From: a virus
Reading direction: 5' to 3' (one strand)
Virus record (IMG/VR): IMGVR_UViG_3300042475_005194
Span: 1 to 26,666 of that record
Length of the DNA stretch: 26,666 bases
The translations under genes and the position numbers were made by a program. Below, one piece after another: positions 4,861 to 26,008 of this stretch. The notes beneath the pieces are model-generated. The model was not told the origin of the DNA. It did not search any database and was given only the letters and a program-made list of their open reading frames with translations. The first letter of the stretch is position 1, and every line of letters begins with the position of its first letter.

Positions 4861-4865
4861 TACCC

Positions 4866-14479: not shown

Positions 14480-15019
14480 ATGGACCCCACCGACTTCCTC
14501 GCCGCCGAGCCCGCCACCGCCGCCTTTGTGGGCAGCGACGCGCACACCCTCTTCGGCCATCCGCTCGCACCCTTCAGCATCCGCCGCCAGATCGCCGCCC
14601 AGGCCCTCGGCAACCGCCTGCTCTGCGGTCGTGCGCGCATGGAGCCGCCGCAGCCATGCCCGCGCTGCGCCGGGCGGATTGATCCCCAGTGCCCCTCCTG
14701 CGCCGGCACCGGAGAGCGCCACGGCACCTACGACGGCCAGTTTGCCGATGTCATCGGACTGCTCCACCTCTGCGCCGCGCCCGATGCCGAATCCCTCCGC
14801 GCCGTGCGCGATCCCGTCGCCGTGTTCGATGCCGCCTTCGCCTGGGCCGAGCGCGAGTGCATCACCCTCGGCTCGCCGCGCTACATCGAGGCCTGCACCG
14901 TTTTCTTCGCCATCCTCAGCGATCTCCAGCGCGCGCAATTCACTGTGGATGGGGCCGAGGCTGACGAGGGCAAAAAAAAAGCCCCGGCTACTGCCACCTC
15001 GCCGAATACGTCGCCATGA
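14480..15019 (+). CDS. tail assembly chaperone, zero-frame product (G-like)
   Basis: A 179-residue protein directly before the tape-measure region. An N-terminal FSIRRQIAAQALGNRLLCG helix is followed by a zinc knuckle (CPRCAG, then CPSCAGTGERHG, as in DnaJ-type zinc fingers) and helices with FAWAERECI and FAILSDLQRAQF. It ends in a Lys-rich tail coded partly by a run of nine A. At this run the ribosome may slip to the -1 frame, joining it to the frame that ends at 15198, as in lambda G/GT. The zero-frame stop overlaps ATG 15016. The zinc knuckle is unusual for this type of protein. Confidence 0.72.
   Translation: MDPTDFLAAEPATAAFVGSDAHTLFGHPLAPFSIRRQIAAQALGNRLLCGRARMEPPQPCPRCAGRIDPQCPSCAGTGERHGTYDGQFADVIGLLHLCAAPDAESLRAVRDPVAVFDAAFAWAERECITLGSPRYIEACTVFFAILSDLQRAQFTVDGAEADEGKKKAPATATSPNTSP
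14972..14980 (+). promoter_or_regulatory. probable -1 frameshift site (A9)
   Basis: Nine A follow GGC in zero-frame phase AAA AAA AAA G, giving an A AAA AAA slippery heptamer at 14974-14980. The -1 frame is open from here to 15198. Transcriptional slippage on the same run is an alternative. No strong stem is obvious just downstream. Confidence 0.65.
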
Positions 15020-15198
15020 TCGCCGCCGTCACCCATCACGACGCCGCCTTCATCCTGTGGCGCATGCCGCTCGCCCAGGGCCTGCAATACCAGGCCGTGT
15101 GGCTCGACATGGATGCCGCCGCCAAAGGCCGCCCCGAGCGCACAGCGCCCGCCCACCGCACCGACCGCAGCGTCTCCTTTGCCCGTCTCGCCGGATGA
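15016..15198 (+). CDS. tail assembly chaperone, -1 frame extension (T-like)
   Basis: The frame encodes MIAAVTHHDAAFILWRMPLA, QGLQYQAVWLDMDA and a Pro/Arg-rich tail. The WRMPLAQGLQY type of sequence is common in C-terminal parts of tail chaperones. The -1 frame is open upstream to the A9 run and adds SPGYCHLAEYVA before this Met, so a G-T fusion of about 239 residues is likely. ATG 15016 also overlaps the zero-frame stop (ATGA), so separate coupled translation cannot be excluded. Confidence 0.7.
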   Translation: MIAAVTHHDAAFILWRMPLAQGLQYQAVWLDMDAAAKGRPERTAPAHRTDRSVSFARLAG

Positions 15199-15884
15199 AA
15201 GCCACCCTCGACATGCGGAAGCTGAACAGCGCCATCGCCCACCTGCAACAGCGCAAGCGGCGCGGCGGCACTCCGCCGCCGCTCGACGGGCTGCTGAAGG
15301 AGGCCGCCAAGGGCTTCGTGCGCAACATCATCGCCATCACTCCCCCCGCGGGGCATGGAACCACGGGGACAGCGGCCAAAAAGGTCGGCGAAACGGCCGT
15401 GGTCGCGGACGTCCTGAAAATCGCCCACCCTGTGACCGTGGTCGGCAGATCGCGAAAAGGGATGCCCACGGAAGCGGACATCCTCGCCGCGCACGCCCGC
15501 AGCCGCTCCGGGGCTCGGGGCCGCGTCAACCCGCGAAACTCCCCGGGACTTTGGGCCGCGCATGCCATCGTCTTCCGCGTCATCACGAAGCTCCAGAAGA
15601 ACGTCGGATGGCTGGCCGCCGGTTGGAATTCCGCCGCCGCGAAACTCGGCGTCACCGTGCCGCTGTGGATTCGCCGCCATGGAACGTCGCGCGGCGCCGC
15701 CGTGATCAGCACGGGCGCCCGTGGTGGGATCCGGATCGTCCTGTCGAACGCGGTCGGTTTTGTCGGCAACGTCGCCGACTATGTCCGCCGCGTGCAGTTC
15801 GCCGTGGACTGGCAGGCGTCCAAGATGTCCCGCAACGCGGCCCACGCCCTCTCCGCCGAGCTGAAGCAGGCAGGATTCAAATGA
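15195..15884 (+). CDS. minor tail protein, function unknown
   Basis: A 229-residue basic protein. The N-terminus is helical (MRKLNSAIAHLQQRKRRGG, LLKEAAKGFVRNIIAITPP). Later comes a Gly/Arg-rich segment, then WLAAGWNSAAAKLG and a C-terminal strand plus helix (RIVLSNAVGFVGNVADYVRR). The VRNIIAITPPA-type start resembles small tail-completion proteins (HK97 gp10/lambda Z type), but those usually precede the tube gene. It overlaps both the chaperone -1 frame and the tape measure by ATGA. Confidence 0.6.
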   Translation: MKATLDMRKLNSAIAHLQQRKRRGGTPPPLDGLLKEAAKGFVRNIIAITPPAGHGTTGTAAKKVGETAVVADVLKIAHPVTVVGRSRKGMPTEADILAAHARSRSGARGRVNPRNSPGLWAAHAIVFRVITKLQKNVGWLAAGWNSAAAKLGVTVPLWIRRHGTSRGAAVISTGARGGIRIVLSNAVGFVGNVADYVRRVQFAVDWQASKMSRNAAHALSAELKQAGFK

Positions 15885-20008: not shown

Positions 20009-20338
20009 ATGAGCATCATCGAATACATCATCGTCCCTCAACCCACCCCGGCAAACCTCGCCGCCGCCATCACGTCCAAAGCCACCGGCCTCGCGGCCCA
20101 GGGTCGCGCGGCATTCCCGGTCGCAAACCTCAAAGACTCGTCGCTTTTTGGAGAATCCGAGCCCGGCAACGCGGCTATCGCGGTCGTTCAGGACGAAGTG
20201 CCAAACCTCCTCGGGCTGCTGGATTACGCGCTGGGCAGCTCCGCGCCCGAAGTGAACGCAGCTATCGCCGCGCAGATTCACGCGCTGGAGGCGTTGAACG
20301 CAGCTATCGCCGCGCAGATTCACGCGCTGGAGGCGTGA
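20009..20338 (+). CDS. small protein with duplicated heptad repeat
   Basis: A 109-residue protein of unknown function. The N-terminal part (MSIIEYIIVPQPTPANLAAAI, LKDSSLFGESEPGNAAIAV) is followed by a C-terminal coiled coil made of two identical 14-residue units (NAAIAAQIHALEAL). These are coded by a perfect 42-bp tandem duplication. It lies between the fibre and lysis genes and could be a fibre-tip or chaperone protein. The stop overlaps the next GTG. Confidence 0.65.
   Translation: MSIIEYIIVPQPTPANLAAAITSKATGLAAQGRAAFPVANLKDSSLFGESEPGNAAIAVVQDEVPNLLGLLDYALGSSAPEVNAAIAAQIHALEALNAAIAAQIHALEA
20253..20336 (+). repeat. 42-bp perfect tandem duplication
   Basis: The units 20253-20294 and 20295-20336 are identical over 42 bp and keep the reading frame, each coding two heptads. 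Identity including silent positions points to a very recent duplication. The second copy runs into the stop and next start. Confidence 0.92.
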
Positions 20339-21990: not shown

Positions 21991-22211
21991 CGCACCGGCT
22001 TTCCCGCCGACTTCGCCGCATGGCAGACCACGCAAGTGCCGCCCCAGCGCCGCGGCGAGCAGTAGGCGCAATGCTCGCACGTCTTGCATCCAACCGAGGG
22101 CCGGTCGCCGCCCTGGCACTTCCCCACCACCCTCTTCACCCAGGGATCCTTGCCCGGCTCTGCGGCCGCCGCGGAAAGCGCCAGCGCGAGCAGCAGCGCG
22201 AGCGGTTTCAT
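21987..22211 (-). CDS. exported Cys-rich small protein
   Basis: A 74-residue protein on the minus strand. The start at 22211 is chosen because GGAGG lies 6 nt upstream and because it overlaps the preceding stop (ATGA). A signal peptide (MKPLALLLALALSAAAA) is followed by about 57 residues with seven Cys, in the pattern CKTCEHCAYC and CVVCHA. CVVCH fits a c-type haem motif, but the closely spaced Cys pairs fit a metal site equally well. With the gene upstream it forms an exported pair antisense to the late genes, perhaps a lysogenic-conversion unit. Function unknown. Confidence 0.62.
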   Translation of the reverse strand: MKPLALLLALALSAAAAEPGKDPWVKRVVGKCQGGDRPSVGCKTCEHCAYCSPRRWGGTCVVCHAAKSAGKPVR

Positions 22212-22660
22212 TTCACCTCCGCCGCGTAGCCGTCGAGCATCCGGTCGCCAAACGCGGTCGGGCAGTTCACCGCCGCACCTTTGCGCGCCACGATCTCCAC
22301 AGGCATCCCCACCTTCAGATCCACGCCCGTCAGCCACACCAGCCCGTTGTCGCCCGGGATCGCCGTTTTCACGAGCAGCCCCGTCGCAGTGCGCTGCTGC
22401 ACCGTGCCCCGCAGGATCACCGTGCCCGCCCGGGGCCCCGGCGCAGGCGTCGCCGGGGGCAGGTATCCAGGGGGATGGCGCGTGACGACAGAAGCCGGGC
22501 GCCCCAGCCCCGTGGCAGGTCGCTCCAGAGAGGTCGCGCCCGGCTTTGAAAGAGGGTGCGGCGTGGCTGGTGGCGGCGCGGCCGGCACCGGGAGCAGTTC
22601 AGGGTTTTGCGCACTCGCGGAGAAAACCAGCGCGCTCAGGAGGATGAGGATCGTCTTCAT
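22208..22660 (-). CDS. exported Pro-rich protein
   Basis: A 150-residue protein. Start 22660 is preferred over an in-frame Met 7 codons upstream because it gives a clean signal peptide (MKTILILLSALVFSASA). A Pro-rich linker follows (about 20-70), then a compact beta-type domain (GTVILRGTVQQRTATGLLVK, GLVWLTGVDLKVGMPVEIVA), possibly OB-like. The start overlaps the end of the -1 frame extension of the RHH gene (ATGA), and its stop overlaps the next gene. Function unknown. Confidence 0.62.
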   Translation of the reverse strand: MKTILILLSALVFSASAQNPELLPVPAAPPPATPHPLSKPGATSLERPATGLGRPASVVTRHPPGYLPPATPAPGPRAGTVILRGTVQQRTATGLLVKTAIPGDNGLVWLTGVDLKVGMPVEIVARKGAAVNCPTAFGDRMLDGYAAEVK

Positions 22661-22799
22661 GACGGTCGCCAGTAGCACCATCGCCGCGAGCCGTCACGCG
22701 AAATCACCGCGACGGCCCACCCGCAGGGGCGGTCGGGATCGGTGGTGAGGAAATGAGCGAGGCGTTGAAACGCGGCGGCTAGCAGCGCTTCTTCAACGG
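22657..22799 (-). CDS. -1 frame extension of the RHH gene
   Basis: From the slippery site at 22800-22806 the -1 frame is open for 47 codons: AVEEALLAAAFQRLAHFLTT, then DPDRPCGWAVAVISRDGSRR and WCYWRPS. It stops at 22657, overlapping the next ATG as ATGA. It has no ATG, GTG or TTG of its own near its 5' end (a CTG with GAAGAAG upstream exists). Frameshifted, the RHH protein would be 151 rather than 110 residues. A homopolymer sequencing error or mutation is the main alternative. Confidence 0.5.
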
Positions 22800-23111
22800 C
22801 TTTTTTGACTGGGCCTCGCTAGCCCGCGCCTCCTCAGCAACGCGCAGCACGCTTAGGCGCTCCGTGGCGCACTCATCGGCAGTCGTGTGTTTCACCGCGC
22901 CGCCCAGCGCCGGGCGGCTCCGATTCCGCTTCGCATCGAGCATCACCACCATATCGGGAACCGTGCGCAGGGATTCGTCTTCGATCATGTCGAGCACCGC
23001 GACCACGCACTGCTCCGCAAACGCATTCGGACTCCAGTTGAGCGCCGACGCATGGGGCTTCAACCGGTCGCCGACGGCGCTGGCAATCCGCAGGTTGAGG
23101 TAGGTGGACAT
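22779..23111 (-). CDS. ribbon-helix-helix regulator
   Basis: A 110-residue protein with start 23111 chosen because the sequence before it lies in the AT-rich control region. The N-terminus MSTYLNLRIASAVGDRLKPH reads as the DNA-contacting strand and first helix of an Arc/CopG-type RHH fold, and SPNAFAEQCVVAVLDMIEDE as the second helix. A charged helical C-terminus (VAEEARASEAQSKK) runs to a slippery A AAA AAG. It is divergent from another RHH gene across a palindrome and so is likely a lysogeny or accessory-operon repressor. It leads the minus-strand exported genes. Confidence 0.65.
   Translation of the reverse strand: MSTYLNLRIASAVGDRLKPHASALNWSPNAFAEQCVVAVLDMIEDESLRTVPDMVVMLDAKRNRSRPALGGAVKHTTADECATERLSVLRVAEEARASEAQSKKPLKKRC
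22800..22806 (-). promoter_or_regulatory. A AAA AAG slippery site
   Basis: On the minus strand the zero frame reads TCA AAA AAG, the dnaX-type heptamer in correct phase. A GAGG sequence lies about 7 nt upstream and a CGTTGAA/TTCAACG stem can form just downstream, though closer than usual. It leads into the 47-codon -1 frame. Confidence 0.5.
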
Positions 23112-23197
23112 TGTGACGCAAACAACATCGCACAGACTTTTTTTAAGAAAACACAAAAAACCATTGGACATTGACGCGACATGACGCATTATGCGTC
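23112..23197. promoter_or_regulatory. divergent promoter/operator region
   Basis: An AT-rich 86-bp gap between two divergent RHH genes. ATGACGCAT-T-ATGCGTCAT (23181-23199) is a perfect 19-bp palindrome abutting the right gene start. Further TGACGC half-sites lie near 23114 and 23171. A rightward promoter may be TTGGAC (23164) with CATTAT (23187), spacing 17, so the palindrome would cover its -10. A leftward promoter is likely in the T/A-rich part but not clear. Confidence 0.7.
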
Positions 23198-23410
23198 ATG
23201 CACACGAAAAGAAGACCATCTGCTCCGCCGCAGAAATGCGAGATGCAGCCCTTGCCGGCTGCGACGGGGCGAAACAAGACGGTGGCGATTGACGAGGAGC
23301 TGCACGCGAGGCTGAAGGTCATCGCTGCGCAGGAGGGGAAGATGTTGCAGGCCCTCGTCGAATCGTTTCTCGAAAACACAGTCAAAGCCCGGGAGGAGGC
23401 CGGAGCATGA
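23198..23410 (+). CDS. ribbon-helix-helix regulator of the small-gene operon
   Basis: A 70-residue protein. ATG 23198 is favoured over TTG 23171, which would place the operator in the gene. After a basic arm (MHTKRRPSAPPQK), TVAIDEELHARLKVIAA and KMLQALVESFLENTVK give the strand-helix-helix pattern of RHH repressors and antitoxins. It begins inside the 19-bp palindrome, suggesting autoregulation. Its stop overlaps the next ATG. Confidence 0.65.
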   Translation: MHTKRRPSAPPQKCEMQPLPAATGRNKTVAIDEELHARLKVIAAQEGKMLQALVESFLENTVKAREEAGA

Positions 23411-23676
23411 GAACCCTGCCCATCGCCCTCCCGGTTTTGAAGCATCAGCTTGCCCCGGAGGAAGAGACGTTTGTCATCGCTACCTGTCAGCACTACGAGA
23501 GCGATTGGGATGCCGCCCAGTCCGGCTGGTATGTCGAGGCAAACATTCAGCATCGCCCGACGCAGGAACCCCTCGCGAAACTGCAAGCCGGACCCTTTGC
23601 CACTCGTGCGCAGGCGCTCGGCGAGCTCGCGAAGCTGCTGACCAAGATCACGACTGCGGAGGCGAAAAGAGCATGA
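23407..23676 (+). CDS. hypothetical small phage protein
   Basis: An 89-residue protein overlapping both neighbours by ATGA. The middle (FVIATCQHYESDWDAAQSGW, YVEANIQHRP) looks strand-rich and the C-terminus is helical (RAQALGELAKLLTKITT). Family not recognised. It belongs to the six-gene operon that starts at 23198. Confidence 0.6.
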   Translation: MRTLPIALPVLKHQLAPEEETFVIATCQHYESDWDAAQSGWYVEANIQHRPTQEPLAKLQAGPFATRAQALGELAKLLTKITTAEAKRA

Positions 23677-23912
23677 CCACCTCCATGGAACGCACCGTTA
23701 AGGCCGTGGCCATGCAGGCCGACGAGACGGCTTTGGCTCTCACCTTCATGCTTCGTCGGCTCGCCGAAGCCAATGACTGCGAGGCGCTGCCGCCGGATTT
23801 CCTCGAACACCAGGAGGATCTAAAAAGCGCACGCGGCACCATCGACCGCGTCTCCGCCGCCCTCCGCGCCGCCCTGCCCGCGGCGCCGCTTTTCCAACCC
23901 AAAGCCCCATGA
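23673..23912 (+). CDS. hypothetical small helical protein
   Basis: A 79-residue, mostly helical protein (ALALTFMLRRLAEANDCEAL, DLKSARGTIDRVSAALRAAL) without membrane segments. ATG 23673 overlaps the previous stop. Function unknown. Confidence 0.58.
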   Translation: MTTSMERTVKAVAMQADETALALTFMLRRLAEANDCEALPPDFLEHQEDLKSARGTIDRVSAALRAALPAAPLFQPKAP

Positions 23913-25708: not shown

Positions 25709-26008
25709 GAGGGGTGGAATGAGTGCCGCGCGGGGGGCTGGCCTGAGTCCTCGAATGAGGCGGGCGAGAAATAGGGAGTGGTCTTGTGCCGCGGTGTCTT
25801 TGGTGACGGCGGCGGAGAGGCATAGGGACCAGGCGAGGAGGGCTCTTCCAAAGGATCGGAAGCACTGGCTGGCCGGGATGAGGGCGCTGGCCTTAGACGC
25901 GCGGCGGTGGCCTATGTGGCGCAACCGTCAGGTGGAACTGCCGCTGGGGGATTGGATGCCGATGCCCGAACCGCCGAGCGAAAAAGGAGGGGTGGAATGA
26001 GTGCCGCG
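25705..26008 (+). repeat. 26-bp repeat carrying ribosome site and start codon
   Basis: AAAGGAGGGGTGGAATGAGTGCCGCG occurs at 25705-25730 and again at 25983-26008, each time supplying the Shine-Dalgarno sequence, ATG and first codons of a gene. A diverged third copy lies at about 26196-26218. Adjacent protein ends share WMPMPEPPSEKGGVE. Confidence 0.85.
25719..26000 (+). CDS. hypothetical protein with DUF551-like C-terminus
   Basis: A 93-residue protein with a strong GGAGGGG ribosome site. The N-terminal 65 residues are Arg/Ala-rich and helical (LVTAAERHRDQARRALPKDR, KHWLAGMRALALDARRW) and not recognised. The last residues (DWMPMPEPPSEKGGVE) match the end of the next protein almost exactly, so the gene looks like a recombination product that captured a DUF551-type end. 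It overlaps the next ATG. Confidence 0.6.
   Translation: MSAARGAGLSPRMRRARNREWSCAAVSLVTAAERHRDQARRALPKDRKHWLAGMRALALDARRWPMWRNRQVELPLGDWMPMPEPPSEKGGVE

Follow-up and report, generated by a model that had tools for sequence, protein, structure and literature searches.

A candidate programmed −1 frameshift extending a small regulator-like protein of an uncultured phage

The phage locus and its slippery heptamer

The window analyzed here, the whole 26,666-nucleotide stretch of record IMGVR_UViG_3300042475_005194, is a linear virus record of 26.7 kb whose genes include a terminase, portal, protease, major head, tape measure, endolysin, and integrase. As relatives of the endolysin sit in Verrucomicrobiota genomes, the host of the phage is probably a member of the Verrucomicrobiota. 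On the minus strand, an ORF of 110 amino acids extends from an ATG at 23111 to a TAG at 22781–22779 and encodes a small ribbon–helix–helix-like (RHH-like) protein, below called the short form. It is followed on the same strand by a gene of 150 amino acids (22660–22208) with a signal-peptide-like start and no good Shine–Dalgarno (SD) sequence, and then by a Cys-rich, secreted-type ORF of 74 amino acids (22211–21987), the third gene of the operon. On the plus strand, a second RHH-like gene (23171–23410) shares a divergent intergenic region with the gene of the short form.

The initial annotation had drawn attention to a phased A AAA AAG heptamer within the 110-amino-acid ORF, and this reading stands. 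The heptamer lies at 22806–22800, seven codons before the stop, where the zero frame reads TCA AAA AAG, and it thus has the exact X XXY YYZ phase of the slippery motifs of bacterial −1 programmed ribosomal frameshifting. Codon usage predicts 0.14 in-phase NNA-AAA-AAG sites for the approximately 7,200 codons of the window genes, among which this A AAA AAG is the only one. Measured in Escherichia coli together with stimulators, A_AAA_AAG ranks with the most efficient motifs (PMC4066793).

The same annotation had labeled the product an RHH regulator, a name that we retain with caution. None of the curated RHH profiles matched the short form above its cut-off: the Pfam HicB profile stayed below the threshold (E = 0.05, 13.9 bits against a cut-off of 21), and comparison with PHROGs and NCBIfam gave no RHH profile match. 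In favor of the label, residues 6–70 of the short form resemble a family of small proteins in Verrucomicrobiota (E = 1.4e-6 for locus L031, and others). This RHH-like family comprises proteins of 85–130 amino acids (loci L031–L035, L037, L041–L045, and L065–L067), and the Pfam cut-off was reached by none of its scanned members. A single-sequence model of the short form, of low confidence, consists of helices at residues 2–24 and 28–45 and contains no strand, where a dimeric RHH regulator of the Arc/MetJ/HicB type would have a strand at the N-terminus ahead of two helices. In the divergent intergenic region, a perfect inverted repeat with 10-bp arms, CATGACGCAT-T-ATGCGTCATG, occurs at 23180–23200, and a further TGACGCA half-site is found at 23114–23120; together they likely represent an operator. 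The arrangement is as would be expected for a dimeric regulator, and the product of the second RHH-like gene could equally use it.

Signal elements and the −1 frame

We scored the surroundings of the heptamer by rules that Sharma et al. 2014 had established empirically (PMC4066793). An SD-like GAGG at 22817–22814 is placed 8 nt upstream of the heptamer, a spacing that agrees with the published rule for bacterial −1 signals (PMC4066793). Downstream, a 25-nt hairpin, GAAGCGC...GCGTTTC (22791–22767), starts 8 nt after the heptamer and has an energy of −10.8 kcal/mol. The corresponding rule asks for at least 7.6 kcal/mol and a start 4–10 nt past the motif (PMC4066793), a range that includes this hairpin, but some hairpin of that kind is found at 63% of random positions. 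Per nucleotide, its energy of −0.43 kcal/mol is close to the mean of 0.452 among IS3 family members (PMC4066793), and taken alone, the energy is ordinary for this GC-rich genome (z of −1.2 to −1.8). The combination is less common: across 1,500 random in-phase positions of the genome, such an SD element was present at 15.7%, a hairpin as good at 14.6%, and both at 2.3%. An alternative 7-bp helix, CGTTGAA/TTCAACG, begins 1 nt past the heptamer. Neither the GAGG nor the hairpin had been part of the initial annotation.

Re-reading from G22800 opens a −1 frame of 47 codons (22800–22660), AVEEALLAAAFQRLAHFLTTDPDRPCGWAVAVISRDGSRRWCYWRPS, which includes the peptide LAHFLTTDPDRPCGWAVAVISR and with the shift would give a long form of 151 amino acids. 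As the initial annotation had stated, the frame closes in an ATGA that it shares with the next gene (22660–22657), its TGA occupying 22659–22657 and the ATG of the 150-amino-acid gene starting at 22660. The overlap also has the claimed counterparts elsewhere, ATGA being the common junction type in this genome and the next junction, between the 150-amino-acid gene and the 74-amino-acid ORF, another instance of it. A good ribosome-binding site is missing before the 150-amino-acid gene, as it is before many others in this phage, and for this reason its absence was given no weight as evidence. As neither ATG, GTG, nor TTG occurs near the beginning of the −1 frame, translation of the tail as an independent gene from a common start codon is not possible, and this alternative was rejected.

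The openness of the frame is less telling than it may appear. The tail remained open in 39% of shuffles, and since an open frame in that phase necessarily stops at the ATGA, an open frame and the overlap together have a probability of ~0.13 at random; on their own, the two are only suggestive of frameshifting. They are also what one might see if the arrangement were fortuitous, the protein ending at the zero-frame stop, the −1 ORF having arisen by chance in GC-rich DNA, where open frames are common (P open 0.39), and the heptamer being two lysine codons in a Lys-rich C-terminus. The composition of the tail speaks against this. Its codon score exceeds that of shuffles (P = 0.019) and lies far above that of stop-free out-of-frame segments; it resembles the scores of small neighbor genes but falls at the 3rd percentile of this phage's structural genes, and the synonymous-only score is only marginal (P = 0.08). 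Modeled alone and with no alignment used, the tail is predicted to form a helix at residues 3–26 and a beta-hairpin with a mean pLDDT of 78; a Foldseek search with this model gave no significant match. A fortuitous origin would need the codon bias, the protein-like predicted fold, and the GAGG with a well-placed hairpin all to be coincidental. Even considering that distant relatives of the protein stop at this point with no tail and that homologues of the tail were not found in the collections searched, we regard such an origin as unlikely.

A second copy of the locus and more distant relatives

We found one other copy of the locus, on contig 3300042294_004657 of IMG/VR set 3300042294 (L003/L005). 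It shows no difference over positions 22001–23700 of the window, being 100% identical over 1.7 kb with the heptamer included, and the wider contigs differ by ~0.4%. The copy bears on the rival explanation named in the initial annotation, an indel in the A run, which could be either artificial or real. Homopolymers are error-prone, and an assembly or sequencing error might have changed the A count; six A is, however, a short run for an Illumina error, and the separately assembled contig has the same six A in an otherwise identical stretch. The identical copy thus speaks against such an error, which we consider extremely improbable, and carries no information on selection.

A real deletion in the phage lineage is a different matter. 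An ancestor with seven A and a continuous ORF of 151 amino acids might have lost one of them, making the tail a recent fossil that is perhaps partly rescued by slippage. Reasoned from the sequence, a change from A7 to A6 would itself yield the heptamer in phase and keep both the coding bias and the ATGA overlap. On the other hand, such a deletion leaves the GAGG and the hairpin unexplained, the short form matches its distant relatives in length, and no A7 version was found in two protein scans of IMG/VR with 12 peptide patterns able to find it. Agreement between the two contigs weakens only the sequencing-error half of the indel explanation, and we hold the genomic deletion to be decidedly unlikely.

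A diverged homologue with the tail was sought and not found in phages, plasmids, viral contigs, GTDB genomes, and PDB sequences. Viral contigs were scanned at the protein level with the short form, the long form, the neighbor gene, and the family profile, and these scans, together with those of GTDB genomes, returned only the one near-identical contig; phage and plasmid searches for the gene gave no match; and searches with the tail only and with the RWCYWRP DNA pattern gave chance matches only. None of the endolysin-related phages (L006–L014, L024, and L025) has the gene, a match in L013 being rejected as noise as it lies antisense to a portal-like gene. The TerL relatives (L015–L023) belong to the same phage population and, except for the contig already found, their contigs end before the site. 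The distant relatives in Verrucomicrobiota end near the zero-frame stop and have no tail, and because of this the short form looks complete in itself and the tail like an addition. Some members of this family contain an in-phase A AAA AAA near their 3′ end; the −1 frames that follow the in-phase A-runs of L035, L041, and L042 are all either unrelated or short.

Repeated sequences were also observed elsewhere in the window. A 246-bp stretch at 25737–25982 is missing from contig 3300042294_004657; it sits between ORFs with the common ending WMPMPEPPSEKGGVE, and it looks as if a repeated unit had been gained or lost. An exact 42-bp tandem duplication at 20253–20336, in the 3′ end of the ORF at 20009–20338, gives a repeated LNAAIAAQIHALEA peptide. 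The element CCTTTGACACC recurs on the plus strand, exactly at 4864, 12275, 18420, and 20719 and with one mismatch at 51, 4737, and 19748. These seven sites compare with 0.29 expected, and several of them end ~12 nt ahead of gene starts; the element is perhaps a phage promoter or a translation-start element.

Proposed frameshifting and known systems

The initial annotation had proposed that a long and a short regulator are made from one gene. We find this the best explanation, and the evidence for it is now stronger, as the GAGG, the spaced hairpin, the coding bias of the tail, and the identical second contig all speak in its favor; against it stands the absence of a diverged homologue of the tail from our searches. 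We consider it reasonably probable that the protein gains its tail of a helix and a beta-hairpin by programmed −1 frameshifting and that ribosomes are thereby brought to the start codon of the next gene. Most ribosomes would stay in the zero frame and stop at the TAG (22781–22779), giving an RHH-type protein of 110 amino acids, the probable repressor of its own divergent promoter region. Others, a minority, would pause at A AAA AAG, where the hairpin lies ahead and the GAGG behind would pair with the ribosome, and slip back by one base; these would add the 47-amino-acid tail, an extended helix and a beta-hairpin, and produce the form of 151 amino acids. As they would finish exactly at the ATGA, the slipped ribosomes could restart on the next gene, and the slip rate may also set the output of the downstream secreted-type protein. 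More tentatively, and with some doubt on our part, a dnaX-like −1 shift might give two repressor forms together with ATGA delivery to the secreted-protein gene, such that one slip ratio would set both the repressor form and the coupled operon output.

Whereas dnaX, insertion sequences, and phage structural genes provide well-known cases of programmed −1 shifting, such cases are, to our knowledge, rare among phage regulators. The signal found here is of the dnaX type in having an in-phase A AAA AAG, an SD-like element upstream, and a hairpin downstream. The SD spacing is 8 nt, in comparison with about 10 nt in E. coli dnaX, and the outcome differs, as the shift gives a shorter product in dnaX and a longer one here, where the signal sits in the gene of a small regulator-like phage protein. 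Among phage regulatory genes, −1 frameshifting of Lactobacillus phage A2 cro has been seen in E. coli, where it gives a product 12 amino acids shorter than the standard one that is apparently irrelevant in the phage's own host (PMC5009743); the predicted product of our gene would instead be 41 amino acids longer. Another regulator, FseA (msi172/msi171) from a Mesorhizobium ICE, is made by frameshifting close to the point where a small mobile-element ORF ends, but it needs a +1 shift and belongs to another protein family (PMC5009743). Our literature search for ribbon–helix–helix combined with frameshifting and slippery found none. With A2 cro, frameshifted phage regulators are already known, and the novelty of the case is therefore moderate. 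A clear case from an uncultured Verrucomicrobiota phage, and in one of its regulators, would nevertheless show recoding in the service of control and not of structure, and the small size of the element allows it to be tested directly.

The tail assembly chaperone genes G/GT offer a further comparison. There too, as proposed for our gene, ribosomes that slip by −1 shortly before a short ORF ends extend the product at its C-terminus; the gene concerned is structural and lies upstream of the one for the tape measure, whereas the gene studied here is of regulator type and divergently transcribed. The window also contains a site resembling G/GT, which lends the proposed frameshifting further support; it lies at 14480–15235, where an A9G run (14972–14981) includes an in-phase A AAA AAA (14974) with a GAGG 14 nt upstream. 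The two ORFs joined by this site had no Pfam or PHROG match. They lie just upstream of the tape measure, with the −1 frame passing an ATGA into the next ORF (SPGYCHLAEYVAMIAAVTHHDAAFILWRMPLAQGLQYQAVWLD...), and the pair likely represents the tail assembly chaperone G/GT of this phage.
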